From: a virus
Length of the DNA: 45,716 bases
IMG/VR virus record: IMGVR_UViG_3300005820_000002
Location: 1-45,716 of that record
Direction: 5' to 3' (one strand)
Both the position numbers and the translations under genes were made by a program. Each line of letters begins with the position of its first letter. Position 1 is the stretch's first letter. The notes beneath the pieces are model-generated. The model worked only from the letters and a program-made list of their open reading frames with translations, did not search any database and was not told the origin of the DNA. Positions 2,664 to 45,716 of the stretch are shown here, piece after piece.

Positions 2664-3309
2664 AAATGAATATGCAAAAGAAATAATCCCCGCAATCGGC
2701 GGGATACTAACGATGTTCGAGGAATACCATATCTTTGTGCCGGAAGCGCCACGGGCTTCGCATAACGATCATACCGACTTGCTCGTTATACTAACCAAAT
2801 CAAAACAGATGTTCAATATAGAATTCAAGCTGGGGAAAATTAAAGAACATAGAATACAAGTGGAACGAACAGAACGAAAAACCGGGATAAGAACCTATGG
2901 ATTGAATCCAGAGTTGAAAGCCCCCCGGGAACATCTCTACAATTTTGACTATGAAATTGATATTGACAAATTCGTGAATAATATTACTTGTTACAGGAGA
3001 CATAACCAGGTAGATGTAACACCCTGGTACCAATCGGCTATTTCCCGCCTGTATTGGTTCGGGTACCAAGATCAGTGGTGTCAATCGGATTTTTTCCCGG
3101 ATGCTATGGAATCTGTTGGAGCGAAAAATGCTAACCGCCTCTCCCTATACCAATTGTTCCAAAAGGCGTGTCTGCAAATTTTCGCAGAGCAAAGAATGAT
3201 TGTTGGTTTCGATATAATATATCCGGTACTTGGATATGGTGCATATACAGAAAGTGTTGCGAAGAAGCATTATCGCGACGCCGTGAAAATATTTAAGGAA
3301 AGAAAATGA
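2656..3309 (+). CDS. Putative PD-(D/E)XK nuclease-like protein
   Basis: 217 residues overlapping DUF5131 by eight bases. Asp41 in HNDHTDLLVIL followed by Glu56-x-Lys58 in FNIEFKLG gives the D-x14-E-x-K spacing of PD-(D/E)XK nucleases, after a helical N-terminus. The remainder is aromatic-rich and matches nothing I know. It could be a nuclease or restriction-like enzyme; the assignment rests on the motif alone. Confidence 0.5.
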   Translation: MTENEYAKEIIPAIGGILTMFEEYHIFVPEAPRASHNDHTDLLVILTKSKQMFNIEFKLGKIKEHRIQVERTERKTGIRTYGLNPELKAPREHLYNFDYEIDIDKFVNNITCYRRHNQVDVTPWYQSAISRLYWFGYQDQWCQSDFFPDAMESVGAKNANRLSLYQLFQKACLQIFAEQRMIVGFDIIYPVLGYGAYTESVAKKHYRDAVKIFKERK

Positions 3310-3539
3310 AAATAAATTGTAAAAGATGCAATCGCGAAATAGAGCAAAAGGAGATCGACAGCCCCTTATGTTCGGATTACCAGATATGCGATGACTGTGC
3401 GGCTGAAATAGCACCTTATTGTCCAGAATGTGAAGAAAATATTTACCCGTTCCTTTACCCCGAAAAAGGAAAGCAATGTGAATGCGAGTGCGGGCAGGAA
3501 TTTGTTGTTAATTGCGGCGCATGGGTAGAGGAAATATGA
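3306..3539 (+). CDS. Multi-zinc-ribbon protein
   Basis: 77 residues in an ATGA overlap. Five cysteine pairs or clusters (CKRC, CDDC, CPEC and CECEC plus singles) point to two or three zinc ribbons in a very small protein. The ending VNCGAWVEEI overlaps the Dam-like gene start. Likely a zinc-stabilised adaptor; function unknown. Confidence 0.7.
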   Translation: MKINCKRCNREIEQKEIDSPLCSDYQICDDCAAEIAPYCPECEENIYPFLYPEKGKQCECECGQEFVVNCGAWVEEI

Positions 3540-4378
3540 AACCCTTATTTCCCTACTATGGTGGCAAGCAGTGGGCCGTGCCCACCCTACTTGACTTGCT
3601 GCCGAAACATTTCAAGAAATACGTGGAGCCTTTCTTTGGCGCCGGCGCATTGTTTTGGGCGCTTCCTGAAGACGATAAGCGGCCCTATGTGGTCAATGAC
3701 CATAACCACAAGCTTATTGCATTCTACGAAGTATTACAGAACCCGGCAGAATATGATCAATTACTCCCGCTCATTGCCGGCACCCTGCATTGTGAACATC
3801 AGCATGACAGGGCAAAAAAAATCTATCATGAGGATTGGGAAAACGAAAACATGGTCAAACGGGCGTGGGCTGTATGGATGTTATTGCAGACTTCGATAGG
3901 AGGCCAAACAGATAGCAGCTTTCAGAAAGAAACAAAAGAGCATCGGGCTGGGGGCAAATTTCAATCACAGCTAAAAGGACAGAAAAAGGCAATCGTAAAA
4001 CAAAAAGAGCAAATTATAAAAAGGCTCGAAAAGACAATTATCCTTTGCCAGGATGCGATATCAGTTATTGACATGGTTGACAACGAGGATGTGTTAATAT
4101 TTCAGGACCCCCCCTACGTTGGCGCAGACCAAGGGCATTACAAAGGATATAGAGAAGAAAATTTAATAGAATTGCTTGAAACCGACGCCAAATTGAAGGG
4201 AATGTTTTTGTTGACACATCAGGAGCATCCAATTCTTGATGAATACATACAAAAGTACGGATGGAATTCCAAGAAAATTGAAAAGCTTTCATTTGCCGGG
4301 CCAACAAAAACAAAAAAAAGGACCGAATGTTTCTGTTGGAACTATGATGAAAAATTGAGACAAAGGAGGTTATTTTGA
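3536..4378 (+). CDS. dam: Dam-like DNA adenine-N6 methyltransferase
   Basis: 280 residues, start 3536 (ATGA overlap, GAGGAA upstream). The N-terminus PLFPYYGGKQW is the usual D12-class opening, FFGAGALFW (33-41) is SAM motif I and DPPY (191-194) is the catalytic motif IV, in the alpha-class order. The central charged helical part (residues about 120-175) is the likely target-recognition region. It should methylate adenine in a short site of the phage genome, either against restriction or for timing. The C-terminus overlaps the next gene's TTG start. Confidence 0.88.
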   Translation: MKPLFPYYGGKQWAVPTLLDLLPKHFKKYVEPFFGAGALFWALPEDDKRPYVVNDHNHKLIAFYEVLQNPAEYDQLLPLIAGTLHCEHQHDRAKKIYHEDWENENMVKRAWAVWMLLQTSIGGQTDSSFQKETKEHRAGGKFQSQLKGQKKAIVKQKEQIIKRLEKTIILCQDAISVIDMVDNEDVLIFQDPPYVGADQGHYKGYREENLIELLETDAKLKGMFLLTHQEHPILDEYIQKYGWNSKKIEKLSFAGPTKTKKRTECFCWNYDEKLRQRRLF

Positions 4379-5012
4379 AATTTGCGAAATTTAGCATTAT
4401 TGTTGTGGGTACGCTGGTTGTAATTGTTTCGATTGCACATTACCAGCCTGTGTTTGCGAAATTCGAGCATGCAGGCTGGATCAATTTGGTTTCGTGGCTA
4501 ATGGGGATCATATTTGATCTTCCTGGACTCCTCCTTTTGTATTTCTACGTACAGATACCGGCGAAATCGAAACATGTAATAGGGAGCTTGCTTTTGCTTT
4601 TGATTGCTTTTTTCCACTGGGTCTACTATACTCAGACGGTCCCGGATATTCTCACGAGGCTTGTATTATCAGCAGTATGGCCAGTTATGATAATTGTAGT
4701 AACGTTTGTTGCTTACCAGATTCGGAAAATTGAAAGCGAAAAAGCAAAAGCAAAAGCGGAGCCGGAGCCGGAAAAAGCGGAAGAAGAAGCGAAACCTGAT
4801 GGAATCTTGACATTTTTAGGTGTGCCAAAAAAACAAACGGCCCCGCCGCTGGCAAAAAAAAAACGGCAAACCCTGGACCGGGAAACCAGGAGTACAAAAA
4901 ATATGAAATCAGGCCCGACGCCTACCGGTGCCCCAACTGCCAAAAAGAATACCGGGGGGTCCACAGATTCAATGCGCACCGATGGCGGCAGTGCAAAGGA
5001 GGTGAAAAATGA
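4375..5012 (+). CDS. Four-helix membrane protein with a -1-frameshifted C2HC zinc finger
   Basis: TTG start after AAAGGAGGT. Four hydrophobic helices (about residues 5-23, 36-59, 66-86, 92-115) are followed by a Lys/Glu/Pro-rich linker. Read straight, the frame gives a low-complexity tail ending at 5025. A -1 shift on A10 (4854-4863) instead gives a 212-residue product with C186-x2-C189-x12-H202-x4-C207, a textbook C2HC finger, ending at 5012 in an exact ATGA overlap with the next gene. The -1 frame is open from 4800 but has no start codon. I therefore favour programmed frameshifting, or less likely an indel in the homopolymer. The function of the membrane part is unknown. Confidence 0.7.
4854..4863 (+). 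other. A10 slippery site for -1 frameshift
   Basis: Zero-frame codons read GCA AAA AAA AAA CGG; slipping back one base gives AAA ACG GCA and opens the zinc-finger frame. A second A7 run at 4827-4833 upstream is an alternative slip site in the same overlap. No strong stem-loop is obvious directly downstream. Confidence 0.55.
4914..4935. repeat. 22-base exact match to 32841-32862
   Basis: Located just downstream of A10 in the zinc-finger frame (codons for RPDAYRCP). See 32841-32862. A chance match of this length within 45 kb is unlikely. Confidence 0.8.
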
Positions 5013-5194
5013 AAAAAAAGAATGAAATTAAAGAATGGATTAAAAAGTTAATAGAGGAAAAAGAAACTTATCAAAGGGCAGGGCCTTGCTATAGTATTGA
5101 AATACAAGAATTTATCAATATTATCATTGAAATTCTTAATAAAAACATTGATTTTTTATCCAAAATTATGGATTCTATTGGAGGCGAAAAATGA
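5009..5194 (+). CDS. Hypothetical protein, 61 aa
   Basis: Starts in an ATGA overlap with the frameshifted reading of the previous gene, with AAGGAGGT at the right distance. Lysine- and isoleucine-rich, predicted as two helices with an amphipathic C-terminal half (EIQEFINIIIEILNKNI). No family recognised. Confidence 0.7.
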   Translation: MKKKNEIKEWIKKLIEEKETYQRAGPCYSIEIQEFINIIIEILNKNIDFLSKIMDSIGGEK

Positions 5195-5466
5195 CAGACC
5201 AAGAGATTGAAAAATTAAAAAAATTGGACAATTACTGTATCTGTCTGAGGGTTAGGTGCTGCTGGGAATTAGTGGTAGAAGAAGTTGAAAGTGTTGTTTT
5301 CAGCATTAAGAACATACCGACAGGATGGATTGTGGGCGAATCATGCGTGGATGAGTACGAAATATTAAGAGAGCAGCTTTTCCGGAGACTACCTGACTGG
5401 ATGCTTGAAAAGAAATTTTCTATTAGGTACTCCTGGAAGGCTGTTGAAATCGGAGGTAATGAATGA
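5191..5466 (+). CDS. Hypothetical protein, 91 aa
   Basis: ATGA overlap at both ends, GGAGGC upstream. It contains CICLRVRCC near the N-terminus and mixed alpha/beta composition. No motif that fixes a function; part of the coupled string leading to the methyltransferase at 5463. Confidence 0.65.
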   Translation: MTDQEIEKLKKLDNYCICLRVRCCWELVVEEVESVVFSIKNIPTGWIVGESCVDEYEILREQLFRRLPDWMLEKKFSIRYSWKAVEIGGNE

Positions 5467-6056
5467 AAGATTACAAGCGAATCAAAGAGTCATGCGCACG
5501 GCACGCTCTACGTAGGGCGTTTATGTGCGAAAAATTCACCAAAAACGCGGTTGGTGCGGAGATAGGGGTGTTATACTGGCAATTTTCAGAGCAAATATTA
5601 GAAATTGCAAAACCTAAATTGCTGTACCTGGTGGACCCCTGGGAAAAAGACGATGCCAATGGAGAGCGGACCCCGGAGGATATGGAGGTCATGTATGAAG
5701 AGGGTTTTTATAGATATTGCATGCTCGATAATGTTGACGTAATGAGAATGACCTCAAAAGAGTTTTTTGAAAGAGAAATGAAAAGGCGTATTGAGGATAA
5801 AGATCGCAGGTCTCCTTATAATCAGCCCCTTGACTTCGTGTACATTGACGGCGACCACAATCAAATCTATCAAGACCTTTGCGGTGCATGGGAAGCTGTG
5901 AGACCTGGCGGATTAATCACCGGTGACGACTGGAATTGTAGACATTGGGGAAACGGTGTCGAGTTGGCGGTCAAGAGGTTCTGTGCCGAAAAGGGAATAA
6001 CTTATGAATTGTTCCCGGTTGGCAATTTGCCGGCACAGTTTTTGATCAGGAGGTAA
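5463..6056 (+). CDS. Class I SAM-dependent methyltransferase (Methyltransf_24 type)
   Basis: 197 residues. VGAEIGVLYWQF (30-41) is the SAM-binding motif I in the EIGV form, LVDPW follows as motif II, DFVYIDGDH (124-132) is motif IV and RPGGLITGDDW is motif V/VI. This family usually methylates small molecules, sugars or O-antigen components rather than DNA, because it lacks NPPY or PC motifs. With the SpsF-like and DUF115-like genes elsewhere in this genome it may act on a glycan (inference). Confidence 0.8.
   Translation: MKDYKRIKESCARHALRRAFMCEKFTKNAVGAEIGVLYWQFSEQILEIAKPKLLYLVDPWEKDDANGERTPEDMEVMYEEGFYRYCMLDNVDVMRMTSKEFFEREMKRRIEDKDRRSPYNQPLDFVYIDGDHNQIYQDLCGAWEAVRPGGLITGDDWNCRHWGNGVELAVKRFCAEKGITYELFPVGNLPAQFLIRR
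6036..6054. repeat. 19-base direct repeat, copy 1
   Basis: Same 19 bases as 6394-6412 (starts CAGTTTTTGATC, ends AGGAGGT). It spans the 3' end of one gene and the Shine-Dalgarno of the next, marking a duplication seam. Confidence 0.7.
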
Positions 6057-12842: not shown

Positions 12843-13607
12843 ATGAACATAGGGGTAATAATTCAAGCCAGTATCGGAAACGCAACAAAGACCATTGCCG
12901 GCGTCCCTACCATAAGGCGCTGTATAGAAGCGTGCTTCAAATTCCCTGTCAGGAAAGAAAACATCGTTCTGGCCGTTCCCTGGACCACTGAAAACAAAGC
13001 GTTCAAAAACCATTTGTGTTTCCCTGGGGGAAACATCAAGATACACTACGAGCATGAGGAAAACCTTATGCAGCGGATTTTTTTCGCGTGTCTAAATAAT
13101 GGCCTTGATGTCATTTTTCAAGTGAATGGTAATAATCCTGTCCCGTCCTGGGAAATAGCCACGGTCCTGCTGAAATCGCACCTTGAAACCGGGGCGGACT
13201 TCACGGAGGCGGAAAAATTCACCCTGGGTATCGGTTGCCAGGTGTGGAATGTGGAAGCCCTGGGAATTCTGAATAGCCTATTTCCAAACCCGAAATATTC
13301 GGAACACATGAGCGAATACACGAAAAACAATCCAGGGGCGTTCAACGTCAACCGGGTCAAACTGCCCCCGGAGTACATCACGGATCATCGATTGACAATC
13401 GATTACCCCGAAGATTTAAGAATGTTCAAGATGCTTTTTGCCAGGATAGCGGAATCTGATTTGATAGGCAAATTTGACGTTCACGACGTTTTCCAGATAC
13501 TTAATGATAACCCGGAGATAGCGGCGGTCAATTCACACCGGCTGCAGGCCATATTGGAGCCGGGGCTAATTGAAAAAATTAAACAGGATTCGAGAATAAA
13601 GAGGTAA
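12843..13607 (+). CDS. SpsF/NeuA-like cytidylyltransferase family protein
   Basis: 254 residues. The overall order matches SpsF-type CMP-sugar synthetases: beta-strand start (MNIGVIIQA), NLMQRIFFACLNNGLDVIFQ, VNGNNPV, EHMSEYTKNNPGAFNV, HRLTIDYPED (from residue 182), FDVHDVFQIL and NPEIAAVNSH. The usual nucleotide-gripping RMGSTRLPGK is replaced by SIGNATKTIAG, so activity may be altered. It would make CMP-activated sugars; in a phage this suggests virion or host glycan modification. It lies in an island between the two parts of the minor head gene. Confidence 0.72.
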   Translation: MNIGVIIQASIGNATKTIAGVPTIRRCIEACFKFPVRKENIVLAVPWTTENKAFKNHLCFPGGNIKIHYEHEENLMQRIFFACLNNGLDVIFQVNGNNPVPSWEIATVLLKSHLETGADFTEAEKFTLGIGCQVWNVEALGILNSLFPNPKYSEHMSEYTKNNPGAFNVNRVKLPPEYITDHRLTIDYPEDLRMFKMLFARIAESDLIGKFDVHDVFQILNDNPEIAAVNSHRLQAILEPGLIEKIKQDSRIKR

Positions 13608-15511: not shown

Positions 15512-15852
15512 AAACTTCTTTTTTTAATCTCGCAAATTTGTTTGCGGAGGTCAGCTTCATGTTTTTCTAATTCAATTAAATGCCCTACTTCCAAAGAATA
15601 TGCCTTTCTCCTTTTAAGATAATCGTTTATTGTTCGGCCTTTCAGCAATGAAAGAAGGAAAGATTTCTTTGAATATAAAAGGCCATAAACACATATCGCA
15701 TCATCTGGTACCGTACGAATAAGACCGCCCATGCAAAACCTTTCTTCATTGCAGTCGAAACTTTTACAGTCAAAAATCTGGCATTCCCTATTTTTCCCAA
15801 AGTATTGGTTTTCAAGCGCGGAAAGCTTTTTTTTCTTTTTTGAAAATAACAT
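15469..15852 (-). CDS. Opposite-strand moron gene, 127 aa
   Basis: The only minus-strand gene within the structural region. ATG at 15852 follows a perfect AGGAGG seven bases away. Lysine-rich start (MLFSKKKKKLSALE), then CQIFDCKSFDCNEERFC, a Cys cluster that may bind metal, and a helical C-terminus. It has its own promoter (15872-15900). No family recognised; the layout is that of a moron, possibly a regulator of the neighbouring divergent gene. Confidence 0.7.
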   Translation of the reverse strand: MLFSKKKKKLSALENQYFGKNRECQIFDCKSFDCNEERFCMGGLIRTVPDDAICVYGLLYSKKSFLLSLLKGRTINDYLKRRKAYSLEVGHLIELEKHEADLRKQICEIKKRSFQNNLLCPPATLIM

Positions 15853-15871
15853 GTTAATCCTCCTATCTATT

Positions 15872-15900
15872 ATTATAGCATCGTTTCGCTGTATTTTCAA
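15872..15900 (-). promoter_or_regulatory. Promoter for opposite-strand moron gene
   Basis: On the minus strand TTGAAA (15895-15900), 17-base spacer, perfect TATAAT (15872-15877). It faces away from the plus-strand promoter at 15921-15949. Confidence 0.7.
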
Positions 15901-15920
15901 CACAAATATTTTTTTCATAG

Positions 15921-15949
15921 TTGACAAATCCACAAATGTAGTACATAAT
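15921..15949 (+). promoter_or_regulatory. Promoter for DUF115-like moron gene
   Basis: Perfect TTGACA (15921-15926), 17-base spacer, CATAAT (15944-15949). Its predicted start is at the ATG of gene 15956, which lacks a Shine-Dalgarno, so the mRNA may be leaderless. Confidence 0.6.
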
Positions 15950-15983
15950 GTTCATATGAACAGTAACGAGGTTCACGTGAACC
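15950..15983. promoter_or_regulatory. Paired palindromic operator
   Basis: GTTCATATGAAC (15950-15961) and GGTTCACGTGAACC (15970-15983) are both perfect palindromes sharing GTTCAyrTGAAC. Their centres are exactly 21 bases, two helical turns, apart. They begin at the base after the -10 box and run into the coding start, an ideal place for a dimeric repressor. Confidence 0.65.
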
Positions 15984-16642
15984 AAGTACATGAACGCCAG
16001 ACGTATTATCTTAACGATTTCTACCACGAGCCGGAAAAAGCACCGTTCGATACCAGCAAAAACGCTGTGATAATCGGAAGAGGGAACCGAAACAAAGAGC
16101 GATTTTATTTTAATCTCAATAATCTCAATATCTTCTTTCTCAACTTTGCCCCCCCCAAGTGGGCGTTTGAATTCTATCAAAAAAAATTCCCAGAGAGATT
16201 GAAGGATAGCATTTTCGCATTCATTCACGGCGCTCACATCGATGCATTGAAACCAAATCTTGCTTCCAGTGTGAACATCATTACCTGGAAAAAAGAAACC
16301 AGGTTCAGCATGTTTGGTGTCAAGAATTGTATAGGCAAATGCGCGGAATGGTTGGGGATGACCCTCAAAGGAAAGGACATATATCTATGTGCATTGGATT
16401 TCGATGAACCAAGGCCGCGTGGAGCCTGGGAAATGGACAGGGATGCACTCAGGGGTGCAATGCAAAAACACGGAACCTATCCGGAAGATGGGCCTTATTT
16501 GTACAAAAATAAATTTAAATTCATAACCCCAAATCGGTATTATACAGCAGATTACATGCCAGTAGAGAAAGTTGATGCATGTCTAGAAAAATTAAAAAAC
16601 GAAAAATTAGTAATGGAGGTAAACGATGGCAGATGCAACTAG
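15956..16642 (+). CDS. DUF115-like / putative glycosyltransferase moron protein
   Basis: 228 residues. An early strand-turn NAVIIGRGNRNKER and a later GVKNCIGKCAEWLGMTLKGKDIYLCALDF are arranged like the nucleotide-sugar fold of DUF115 and related sialyltransferase-like proteins (glycine-rich loop, then I-YL-x-x-x-D). The match is by pattern only. It has its own promoter and no ribosome binding site. It overlaps the scaffold gene by 17 bases, which argues that it has been fixed here for some time. Confidence 0.45.
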   Translation: MNSNEVHVNQVHERQTYYLNDFYHEPEKAPFDTSKNAVIIGRGNRNKERFYFNLNNLNIFFLNFAPPKWAFEFYQKKFPERLKDSIFAFIHGAHIDALKPNLASSVNIITWKKETRFSMFGVKNCIGKCAEWLGMTLKGKDIYLCALDFDEPRPRGAWEMDRDALRGAMQKHGTYPEDGPYLYKNKFKFITPNRYYTADYMPVEKVDACLEKLKNEKLVMEVNDGRCN

Positions 16643-20087: not shown

Positions 20088-21152
20088 ATGGCACAATTAA
20101 ATAAAGGAGACAAAGATATAGGCATTGCAAAAACAACGGCCTGGTTAACCGAGACAATGCCGGGCGTAAATGGTCGTGTTCCTGTGACAGATTTTACCCC
20201 CCCCCAAAATGACCGGCAGAAATACACGAACGAATTGGTAAGCGGGAATCAGAATATTGCCGATTGCCTTGAGATGCTGAATTACCCGGAAGTGAATTTC
20301 CCGTTCACTTTCAAGATGAAGTATGACACATACTATCTAATATGGGCACTAGCTAGCATATACGGGCAATATTCCTGCGATGCCGACACTCCCGAAGCCG
20401 GGGTCAATAAGCATAATTTCTTGTGGGATTCCCTCATTGCAGACACCACAAACCTTTTCCACACTTTTTCTTGGGACGCCTATACAACTATTTTCTATGT
20501 CGCTTCATGCCTGTTTCAGGGGCTTACAATTACCAATGACAACGGCTTCCAGGTTGCGTGCAATATGCTTGGGGATAGGGTGCAAGAATATTATGCAACG
20601 GGTCCACAGACGGTTACTAGCCCGAACGTTTGCGGCGGTGACCTCTGCAAGCTTGGCGGACTCACGGTGCTGATGAATGCAGAGAGCGGCGGCGCACTGG
20701 GGGCCGGTGATGAAGTCGTGGTCAATAACATAACGCTCAACCCAGTGCGAAATTACGAGGCAGCACCGCAGCAAAGCGGCACCCTCTACGCTGGCCAGCC
20801 CTACGAACCGGACACGCCGGCGGAATATATGATAACGATGGAACTTCGCAGCATGAATGCCGTGAATGCGCTGTGGTTTGCAACGCATAATGCAGGTACC
20901 CGGCAAAAGATGACACTGACATGGTTAGGTGACACCATTTCGGGAAAAACGGCTACCTATACCTGTTATCTTGAATTTCCGTCCCTGAAATCCAACGAGG
21001 AACCTACTTACGATTTTGCCGCCCCGACGCCGGTAACGATGGTCCTGGGTATTATGAAAGCACAAAGCGCACCCACGGGGATGACGCTAACTCTCCCCAA
21101 TGGGTATATATACAACACGTTGGCTGCCCTGACCGGGTACCCAACAATCTAA
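20088..21152 (+). CDS. Major tail tube protein
   Basis: 354 residues in the fixed place before the tail chaperones. Beta-rich with an opening GIAKTTAWLTETMPGVNG, a mid-region VVVNNITLNPVRNYEAAP and a C-terminal domain rich in Gly/Thr. It should polymerise in hexameric rings around the tape measure. It is long for a tail tube, so it may carry an extra domain. Confidence 0.7.
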   Translation: MAQLNKGDKDIGIAKTTAWLTETMPGVNGRVPVTDFTPPQNDRQKYTNELVSGNQNIADCLEMLNYPEVNFPFTFKMKYDTYYLIWALASIYGQYSCDADTPEAGVNKHNFLWDSLIADTTNLFHTFSWDAYTTIFYVASCLFQGLTITNDNGFQVACNMLGDRVQEYYATGPQTVTSPNVCGGDLCKLGGLTVLMNAESGGALGAGDEVVVNNITLNPVRNYEAAPQQSGTLYAGQPYEPDTPAEYMITMELRSMNAVNALWFATHNAGTRQKMTLTWLGDTISGKTATYTCYLEFPSLKSNEEPTYDFAAPTPVTMVLGIMKAQSAPTGMTLTLPNGYIYNTLAALTGYPTI

Positions 21153-21161
21153 GGAGAACAA

Positions 21162-21674
21162 ATGAAAGAACCGAAAGATTATGAGCAGGAAGTAATAGAA
21201 GCAGAAGCCCCTATTGCAACCGAAAGCAAGGGCTTCATTTTCCCTTCAAAGGAAAAAATTGAAAAGCAAAACACGACCGGGAAATTATTTGATTTCGATA
21301 TTCCCGGATTGGGAAACTTGCGGCTTCGCATCAGGTTTGTGACGCCTACCGAAATACAAAAATACCGGAAGAGTTATATTCTCCAACGGAAAAACCCAAA
21401 AACCGGGCGGTTGGATGACTATGAAGACGACGACAAGAGATTTGAAGTGTCAAAAAAGATGATCTATGACGCCGTTACCGGTTGGGAAAACGTCTCTGAC
21501 CAAAACGGGGGTCCAGTTGAATTCAACCGGGAAAACCTGGTGAATCTAATTGATATAATTGCATTACAGGAAATTGACGAGTTTGACGAAGTCGGAGAAA
21601 AAAAGACGGTCATGCGCGCAATCACTGACGCGATGAAGGATAGCGAAGCCCATTTTGGCGAAAAAAAAAACTAG
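21162..21674 (+). CDS. Tail assembly chaperone (G protein)
   Basis: 170 residues in the zero frame, ending two codons after A10. Helical/acidic with LRLRIRFVTPTEIQKYRKSY. With the -1 product below it makes the G/GT pair that coats the tape measure during tail assembly. Starts after AAGGAGA. Confidence 0.8.
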   Translation: MKEPKDYEQEVIEAEAPIATESKGFIFPSKEKIEKQNTTGKLFDFDIPGLGNLRLRIRFVTPTEIQKYRKSYILQRKNPKTGRLDDYEDDDKRFEVSKKMIYDAVTGWENVSDQNGGPVEFNRENLVNLIDIIALQEIDEFDEVGEKKTVMRAITDAMKDSEAHFGEKKN

Positions 21675-22009
21675 AATATTTCCTTCAATTTCGCCTGAAT
21701 AACCGCAACGACTGGAACGTCGATGACGAAATATTCAAACAGGAGAAAGTTGACATATTGGATTCCCTCTCCTATGTGCAAGGGTTGAGTCTCTATTTCT
21801 ACGAATTAGTTTGCACACAGTTTGTTTTTGAGTCGGGCCTGGGCGCTTTTCTTTTTTCAAACATTCAGGATTCATATGATTTCGAGCCTGGAGAATTAGA
21901 ACAAATCATCAGCAATATTTCTCTAATATATTCATACGACATGAAGGCGGCGGCGGCAGACCGGGAATTTGAAACCGCTGCGAACAGGGCAAAAATAAAG
22001 GCGGCATAA
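21162..22009 (+). CDS. Tail assembly chaperone G-T fusion (-1 frameshift product)
   Basis: A slip of -1 on A10 (21661-21670) moves the ribosome from GAA AAA AAA AAC TAG into a frame continuing LEYFLQFRLNNRNDWNVDDE and onward to the stop at 22009, giving 282 residues. The T frame has no ATG before its end and only a poorly placed TTG at 21758, so it is made only by frameshifting, as in lambda and most siphoviruses. The stop overlaps the tape measure start by TAATG. Confidence 0.85.
21661..21670 (+). other. A10 slippery site of tail chaperone
   Basis: Ten consecutive A residues in zero-frame phase GAA AAA AAA AAC. The zero frame stops (TAG) one codon later; the -1 frame stays open for 112 further codons. 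Confidence 0.8.
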
Positions 22010-45538: not shown

Positions 45539-45714
45539 TGCTTGAAAGTATAACAAAACATTGGCATTATCGACATGAAACGTGCACACAATGCGGAAGT
45601 GCAAAAAAACGGAAAATGGAACCCGTTGAAAATGATCATAGTTTTTTTTATAGCTGCATTTGCCGGAAGTGTGGGCATGAATATGTATTCCATAGGTATT
45701 TTGTTCTATTATAA
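45538..45714 (+). CDS. Zinc-ribbon protein spanning the contig join
   Basis: 58 residues, TGATG overlap with the DUF1064-like gene. CTQCGS and CICRKCGHEY form a zinc ribbon. The stop at 45712-45714 lies inside the 99-base terminal repeat, so the gene is complete here; a second, 5'-truncated copy of its end lies at 1-97. Confidence 0.7.
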   Translation: MLESITKHWHYRHETCTQCGSAKKRKMEPVENDHSFFYSCICRKCGHEYVFHRYFVLL

Positions 45715-45716
45715 GG
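45618..45716. repeat. Right copy of 99-base terminal repeat
   Basis: Exact copy of bases 1-99. Joining the two ends brings gene 45538-45714, whose stop lies inside the repeat, directly upstream of gene 108-362. The Shine-Dalgarno AAGGAGA of that gene straddles the end of the repeat at 96-102. The spacing is normal for this genome, which supports circular closure. Confidence 0.9.

Follow-up and report, generated by a model that had tools for sequence, protein, structure and literature searches.

A homopolymer run that may add a zinc finger to part of a phage membrane protein pool

A membrane protein gene of an uncultured tailed phage runs into ten consecutive adenines (A10), after which two reading frames stay open: the zero frame, of low complexity, and the -1 frame, which reads as a C2HC zinc finger. 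The locus raises the question of whether the finger belongs to the product of this gene and, if so, how the -1 frame is reached. Of the readings weighed below, recoding by slippage at the A10 run (4854) best explains the locus as a whole, and we hold it with modest confidence; the slippage event at 4854 is itself one that we infer.

Results

Gene row and reading frames

The window, that is, the whole stretch of DNA analyzed, comprises the 45,716 bases of the virus record IMG/VR IMGVR_UViG_3300005820_000002 and has the gene set of a tailed phage: terminase, major head protein, tail chaperone, tape measure, RecT, and a DnaC-like loader. An exact 99-base direct terminal repeat (1-99 = 45618-45716) suggests, on its simplest reading, a circularized complete genome. 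The gene in question lies in a densely packed row in which 4-base ATGA overlaps occur at junctions 3306, 3536, 5191, and 5463 and a TTGA overlap at 4375, several of the junctions carrying a strong Shine-Dalgarno sequence. The features of the locus are as follows.

Ends 4378: Dam-type methylase (PF02086), the upstream neighbor
4375-5025, plus strand: membrane protein ORF, 216 aa, TTG start, AGGAGG at 4366-4371, TTGA overlap with the Dam gene
4375-4863, plus strand: N-terminal part in the zero frame, four TM helices predicted from hydropathy, then a charged K/E/A/P linker
4854-4863, plus strand: A10 run, the putative slippage site; zero frame GCA-AAA-AAA-AAA-CGG, containing A_AAA_AAA
4864-5025, plus strand: zero-frame C-terminal tail, the product without slippage, 53 residues
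4863-5012, plus strand: -1 C-terminal extension with the finger, stop TGA at 5010-5012
4923-4994, plus strand: predicted C2HC finger YRCPNCQKEYRGVHRFNAHRWRQC, C-x2-C-x12-H-x4-C with C2H2-type spacing of aromatics
5009-5012, plus strand: ATGA overlap of the finger-frame stop with the ATG (5009) of the next gene, whose Shine-Dalgarno sequence AGGAGG lies within the last codons of the finger frame
Starts 5009 and 5191: small downstream genes
Starts 5463: methyltransferase of the same row

Elsewhere in this part of the genome, a small Cys-rich protein with multiple CxxC motifs and a weak DUF1272 match is encoded at 3306-3539, directly upstream of the Dam gene, and a DUF5131 (PF07505) protein at 1740-2663. 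An Rfam search of 4000-6000 returned no match, and PADLOC assigned no defense family.

The membrane anchor and its zero-frame tail

The four hydrophobic segments fall within residues 1-118, and the charged linker then leads to the A10 run. A single-sequence AF2 model places helices at 2-31, 34-60, 63-86, and 92-128 with low confidence (pLDDT 63). Lysines are found at the N-terminus, after helix 2, and after helix 4. Lysine placement marks the cytoplasmic side under the positive-inside rule, and this arrangement would put both ends of the protein inside, which suggests that the C-terminal part is cytoplasmic.

As the first-pass annotation had described, the zero frame ends in low-complexity sequence: its tail is rich in S/T/G/K, with no cysteine, no histidine, and no aromatic residue, and its coding sequence shares 17 bases with the next gene.

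The finger frame

The -1 frame after A10 reads TANPGPGNQEYKKYEIRPDAYRCPNCQKEYRGVHRFNAHRWRQCKGGEK*, 49 residues in all, and the earlier reading of this stretch as a C-x2-C-x12-H-x4-C finger holds. The -1 tail fits every position of the C2H2-type consensus [FY]-x-C-x2-C-x3-[FY]-x5-hydrophobic-x2-H-x3-5-[HC], and this strict pattern has a single match in the six frames of the window. When the codons of the zero-frame tail were permuted, none of 1,982,554 permutations gave the strict finger, and 102 gave a loose CxxC-H-C/H.

The -1 frame is open from 4800 and, in agreement with the first-pass annotation, lacks ATG, GTG, and TTG from there on; the only start-like codons that it contains are ATT at 4812 and ATC at 4908. 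Its stop forms an exact ATGA overlap with the next gene, also as annotated, and this is the 4-base overlap typical of the operon. The terminal residues KGGEK* are encoded by the Shine-Dalgarno sequence of the next gene; the gene whose end is at 5194 closes in the same way, with GGEK*.

Profile and structure comparisons gave lower-scoring results. The phage FDXHR zinc-binding family PF24071 matched at 16.5 bits (model positions 18-41, E 0.0075), below its 27-bit gathering cut-off, and the zf-C2H2 profile at 13.3 bits, below its 25.2 cut-off; the match to the designed C2H2 finger array Aart (2i13) has an E value of 2.9e-4, which applies to the whole array. The structure model of the finger is a weak beta-beta-alpha fold, and Foldseek searches with this low-confidence model returned mostly zinc fingers (C2H2, UBZ), all at E >3, which we do not count as evidence.

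Because the consensus is fully matched, the match is unique, the permutations fail to produce it, and the frame has no usual start codon, the sequence indicates that the finger is, or was until recently, a genuine domain at the C-terminus of the membrane gene product. It is predicted to bind zinc.

A second A10 run at the tail chaperone

The genome contains only two A10 runs, at 4854-4863 and 21661-21670, each at a -1 frame transition, and no other A-run exceeds 9. The second marks the tail assembly chaperone.

21162-22008: lambda-type chaperone G/GT, lying before the tape measure gene, with a -1 T extension and a conserved slip site
21661-21670, plus strand: G to GT -1 site of the tail assembly chaperone (phrog_313), GGCG-A10-CTAG

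The chaperone is a known place of recoding in tailed phages (PMC5009743). A relative, L012, was found through its terminase, which is 48% identical, and its protein G is 32% identical. Its slip site, at 20632, is GGCG-A10-CTAG letter for letter, within a kept CATTTyGGCG-A10-CTAGA (21640-21690 in the window, 20615-20665 in L012), and this is the only A10 in L012. The T frames of the two phages match, starting LEYFLQFRLNNR and LEEFLDFRLNNR. The parallel drawn by the first-pass annotation with the chaperone at 21661 is borne out, and the chaperone site is conserved in a second phage. Because the slip site and the T frame are conserved despite a protein G that is only 32% identical, the comparison indicates that A10 serves -1 recoding in this lineage.

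Two further genes of this phage lack counterparts at the matching places in L012. The gene at 12843-13607, which by eye resembles a nucleotidyl or sugar-phosphate transferase and has no Pfam match, is missing from the syntenic stretch and is a probable moron insertion; an ORF at 15731-16642 with an odd N-terminal part, likewise without a Pfam match, sits between conserved head genes and has no counterpart at that place.

At 4854, the A10 run lies where two open frames overlap and connects them, the -1 frame having no start of its own, and an X_XXY_YYZ heptamer is in phase, as A_AAA_AAA within GCA AAA AAA AAA. Long A-runs are not enriched in the genome (6 A9 matches observed and 8.8 expected). 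Against recoding, the zero frame has no nearby stop after 4863, unlike classic recoding genes, and is open to 5025; by chance, an off-frame stays open over 49 codons in 7-10% of cases.

Recoding or a lost base

An indel of one base, either in the phage sampled or in its assembly, would produce the same picture: the finger would be in frame in the functional gene, with A11 or its equivalent, and the zero-frame tail would be a mutant read-out without a role. We regard this as unlikely, yet a serious alternative. Runs of A this long mutate readily and are prone to error, the tail read in the zero frame is of low complexity and has no domain, and a finger in frame would require no recoding. The evidence on the membrane gene also comes from one genome: peptide patterns run on viral_contigs and genome_contigs, tblastn against phages and plasmids, and a search of 31 related records all gave no homologue. 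The site at 4854 was not seen with other run lengths (8-13 bases) in other viral contigs, and degenerate DNA patterns for the finger had no match in viral contigs, the stricter pattern matching the window itself.

Against an indel stand the other homopolymers of the same genome. The A8-A9 and C8-C9 runs inside main genes all leave the reading frame intact, so indels do not pervade the assembly; the chaperone A10, from the same assembly, is matched in L012. In addition, the terminal repeat suggests a closed k-mer assembly, a type in which miscalling of an A10 is uncommon.

A finger frame that was the sole coding frame should also clearly beat the zero frame in composition, and it does not. In a phase-specific composition model, the stretch after A10 scores -185.6 in the zero frame and -186.9 in the -1 frame, a tie, with the third frame at -204.7; codon usage likewise did not decide between zero and -1. 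Among leave-one-out windows of known genes, 98.7% were decided by more than 1.3, small Cys-rich genes, which were included, nearly always being decided, and the single-coded T region of the chaperone was decided by 21. The tie, which looks like dual coding, weakly favors two real products and is supportive only, because 13 of 1642 windows of ordinary genes show a similar tie, as does one window in the TM region of the membrane gene itself.

Even with an indel, slippage at some level would be expected at this run, because an A11 run in tssM1 slips at about 20% (PMC4256274) and the E. coli RNA polymerase, which may not be the polymerase of the phage host, shows no slippage on fewer than 8 A's (PMC6260861).

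It is improbable that the finger is instead a separate small protein made without slippage from a rare internal start (ATC 4908 or ATT 4812). The weak PF24071 match would fit such a product, FDXHR phage zinc-binding proteins being small and standalone, and an AGGAG is present at 4888-4892. The finger frame, however, has no ATG, GTG, or TTG, the distance of 15 bases between the AGGAG and the ATC is too great, and the sole well-spaced ATG (4903) belongs to the zero frame. More improbable still is a zero-frame protein that is the whole product, with the finger a chance or decayed reading: the zero-frame tail does score marginally better in composition over the finger half, but none of the 1.98 million permutations gives a finger, all C2H2-type consensus positions are satisfied, and the finger frame ends in ATGA.

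Discussion

Under recoding, the membrane gene at 4375 would yield mostly a plain protein of four TM helices whose cytoplasmic tail is disordered. In part of its expression, slippage at A10 would lead into the -1 frame and give a minor form with the identical membrane anchor and a cytoplasmic C2HC finger, the end of which would be coupled to the ATGA start of the next gene. The slippage would most likely be that of RNA polymerase, which would put one extra A into the mRNA, and ribosomal -1 slippage on A_AAA_AAA may contribute.

Neither stimulator of a programmed -1 ribosomal frameshift, a structure or an upstream Shine-Dalgarno sequence, was found at 4854: structures downstream of the A10 were no better than shuffles (z 0.9 and -0.3 to -0.6), an upstream structure was not significant (z -1.1), and no Shine-Dalgarno-like hexamer lies just upstream. 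Low-level phage frameshifts can lack stimulators (PMC5009743), and the A_AAA_AAG-type site is the efficient kind for ribosomal frameshifting in E. coli (PMC4066793). Two features common to the A10 sites favor RNA polymerase slippage over ribosomal frameshifting: neither site has significant RNA structure, and both carry the homopolymer instead of an A_AAA_AAG-type site.

The first-pass annotation knew of no described example of such an arrangement, which overstates its novelty. The tssM1 gene of Citrobacter rodentium (PMC4256274) likewise encodes an inner-membrane protein and carries a poly-A run (A11) shortly before its zero frame ends. About 20% of its product acquires a C-terminal domain through slippage, and both forms are needed, in ratio; tssM1 differs in being a bacterial secretion gene rather than a phage gene, and its added domain is not a zinc finger. 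The lambda-type G/GT chaperone (PMC5009743) shifts to -1 on a slippery run late in its first frame and so gives a minor, C-terminally extended product, as the membrane gene would, and the copy in this phage has the same A10. It serves tail morphogenesis, however, and its zero frame stops at once (CTAG), whereas that of the membrane gene continues for 53 codons after 4863. Frameshifts that add a small domain to a fraction of a phage protein are also known, with Ig-like domains on T3 and A2 proteins and an extension that is not Ig-like in T7 gene 10 (PMC5009743), but these are virion structural proteins and the added domain is not a zinc finger.

Within the limits of the literature searched, we found no precedent for a zinc finger added by slippage to a non-structural membrane protein of a phage. 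The mechanism is already known, with TssM1 as the bacterial precedent, and its use, a finger on a non-structural phage membrane protein, is the new part. The finger itself shares with PF24071 the pattern CPxC-x3-[FY]-x5-F-x2-HR, and differs in having N in place of D and in its attachment to a membrane protein through a change of frame.

By analogy with the required ratio of TssM1 forms, the finger form, minor in the pool, may tether a partner, either nucleic acid or protein, to the inner membrane face in a set ratio. Whether this phage uses A10 and a -1 shift twice, once for tail assembly and independently to equip a fixed share of a non-structural membrane protein with a cytoplasmic finger, the stretch after A10 coding in both frames, we judge to be evenly balanced.

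In GGCG-A10-CTAG, kept by two phages that have diverged, the chaperone offers a clean homopolymer recoding signal that can be tested. Most known cases of recoding in tailed phages concern virion and tail-assembly genes. If recoding at 4854 is true, slippage-made two-form proteins would extend to non-structural, accessory membrane genes of phages, and some phage zinc fingers would have been missed where annotation ends at the zero frame.
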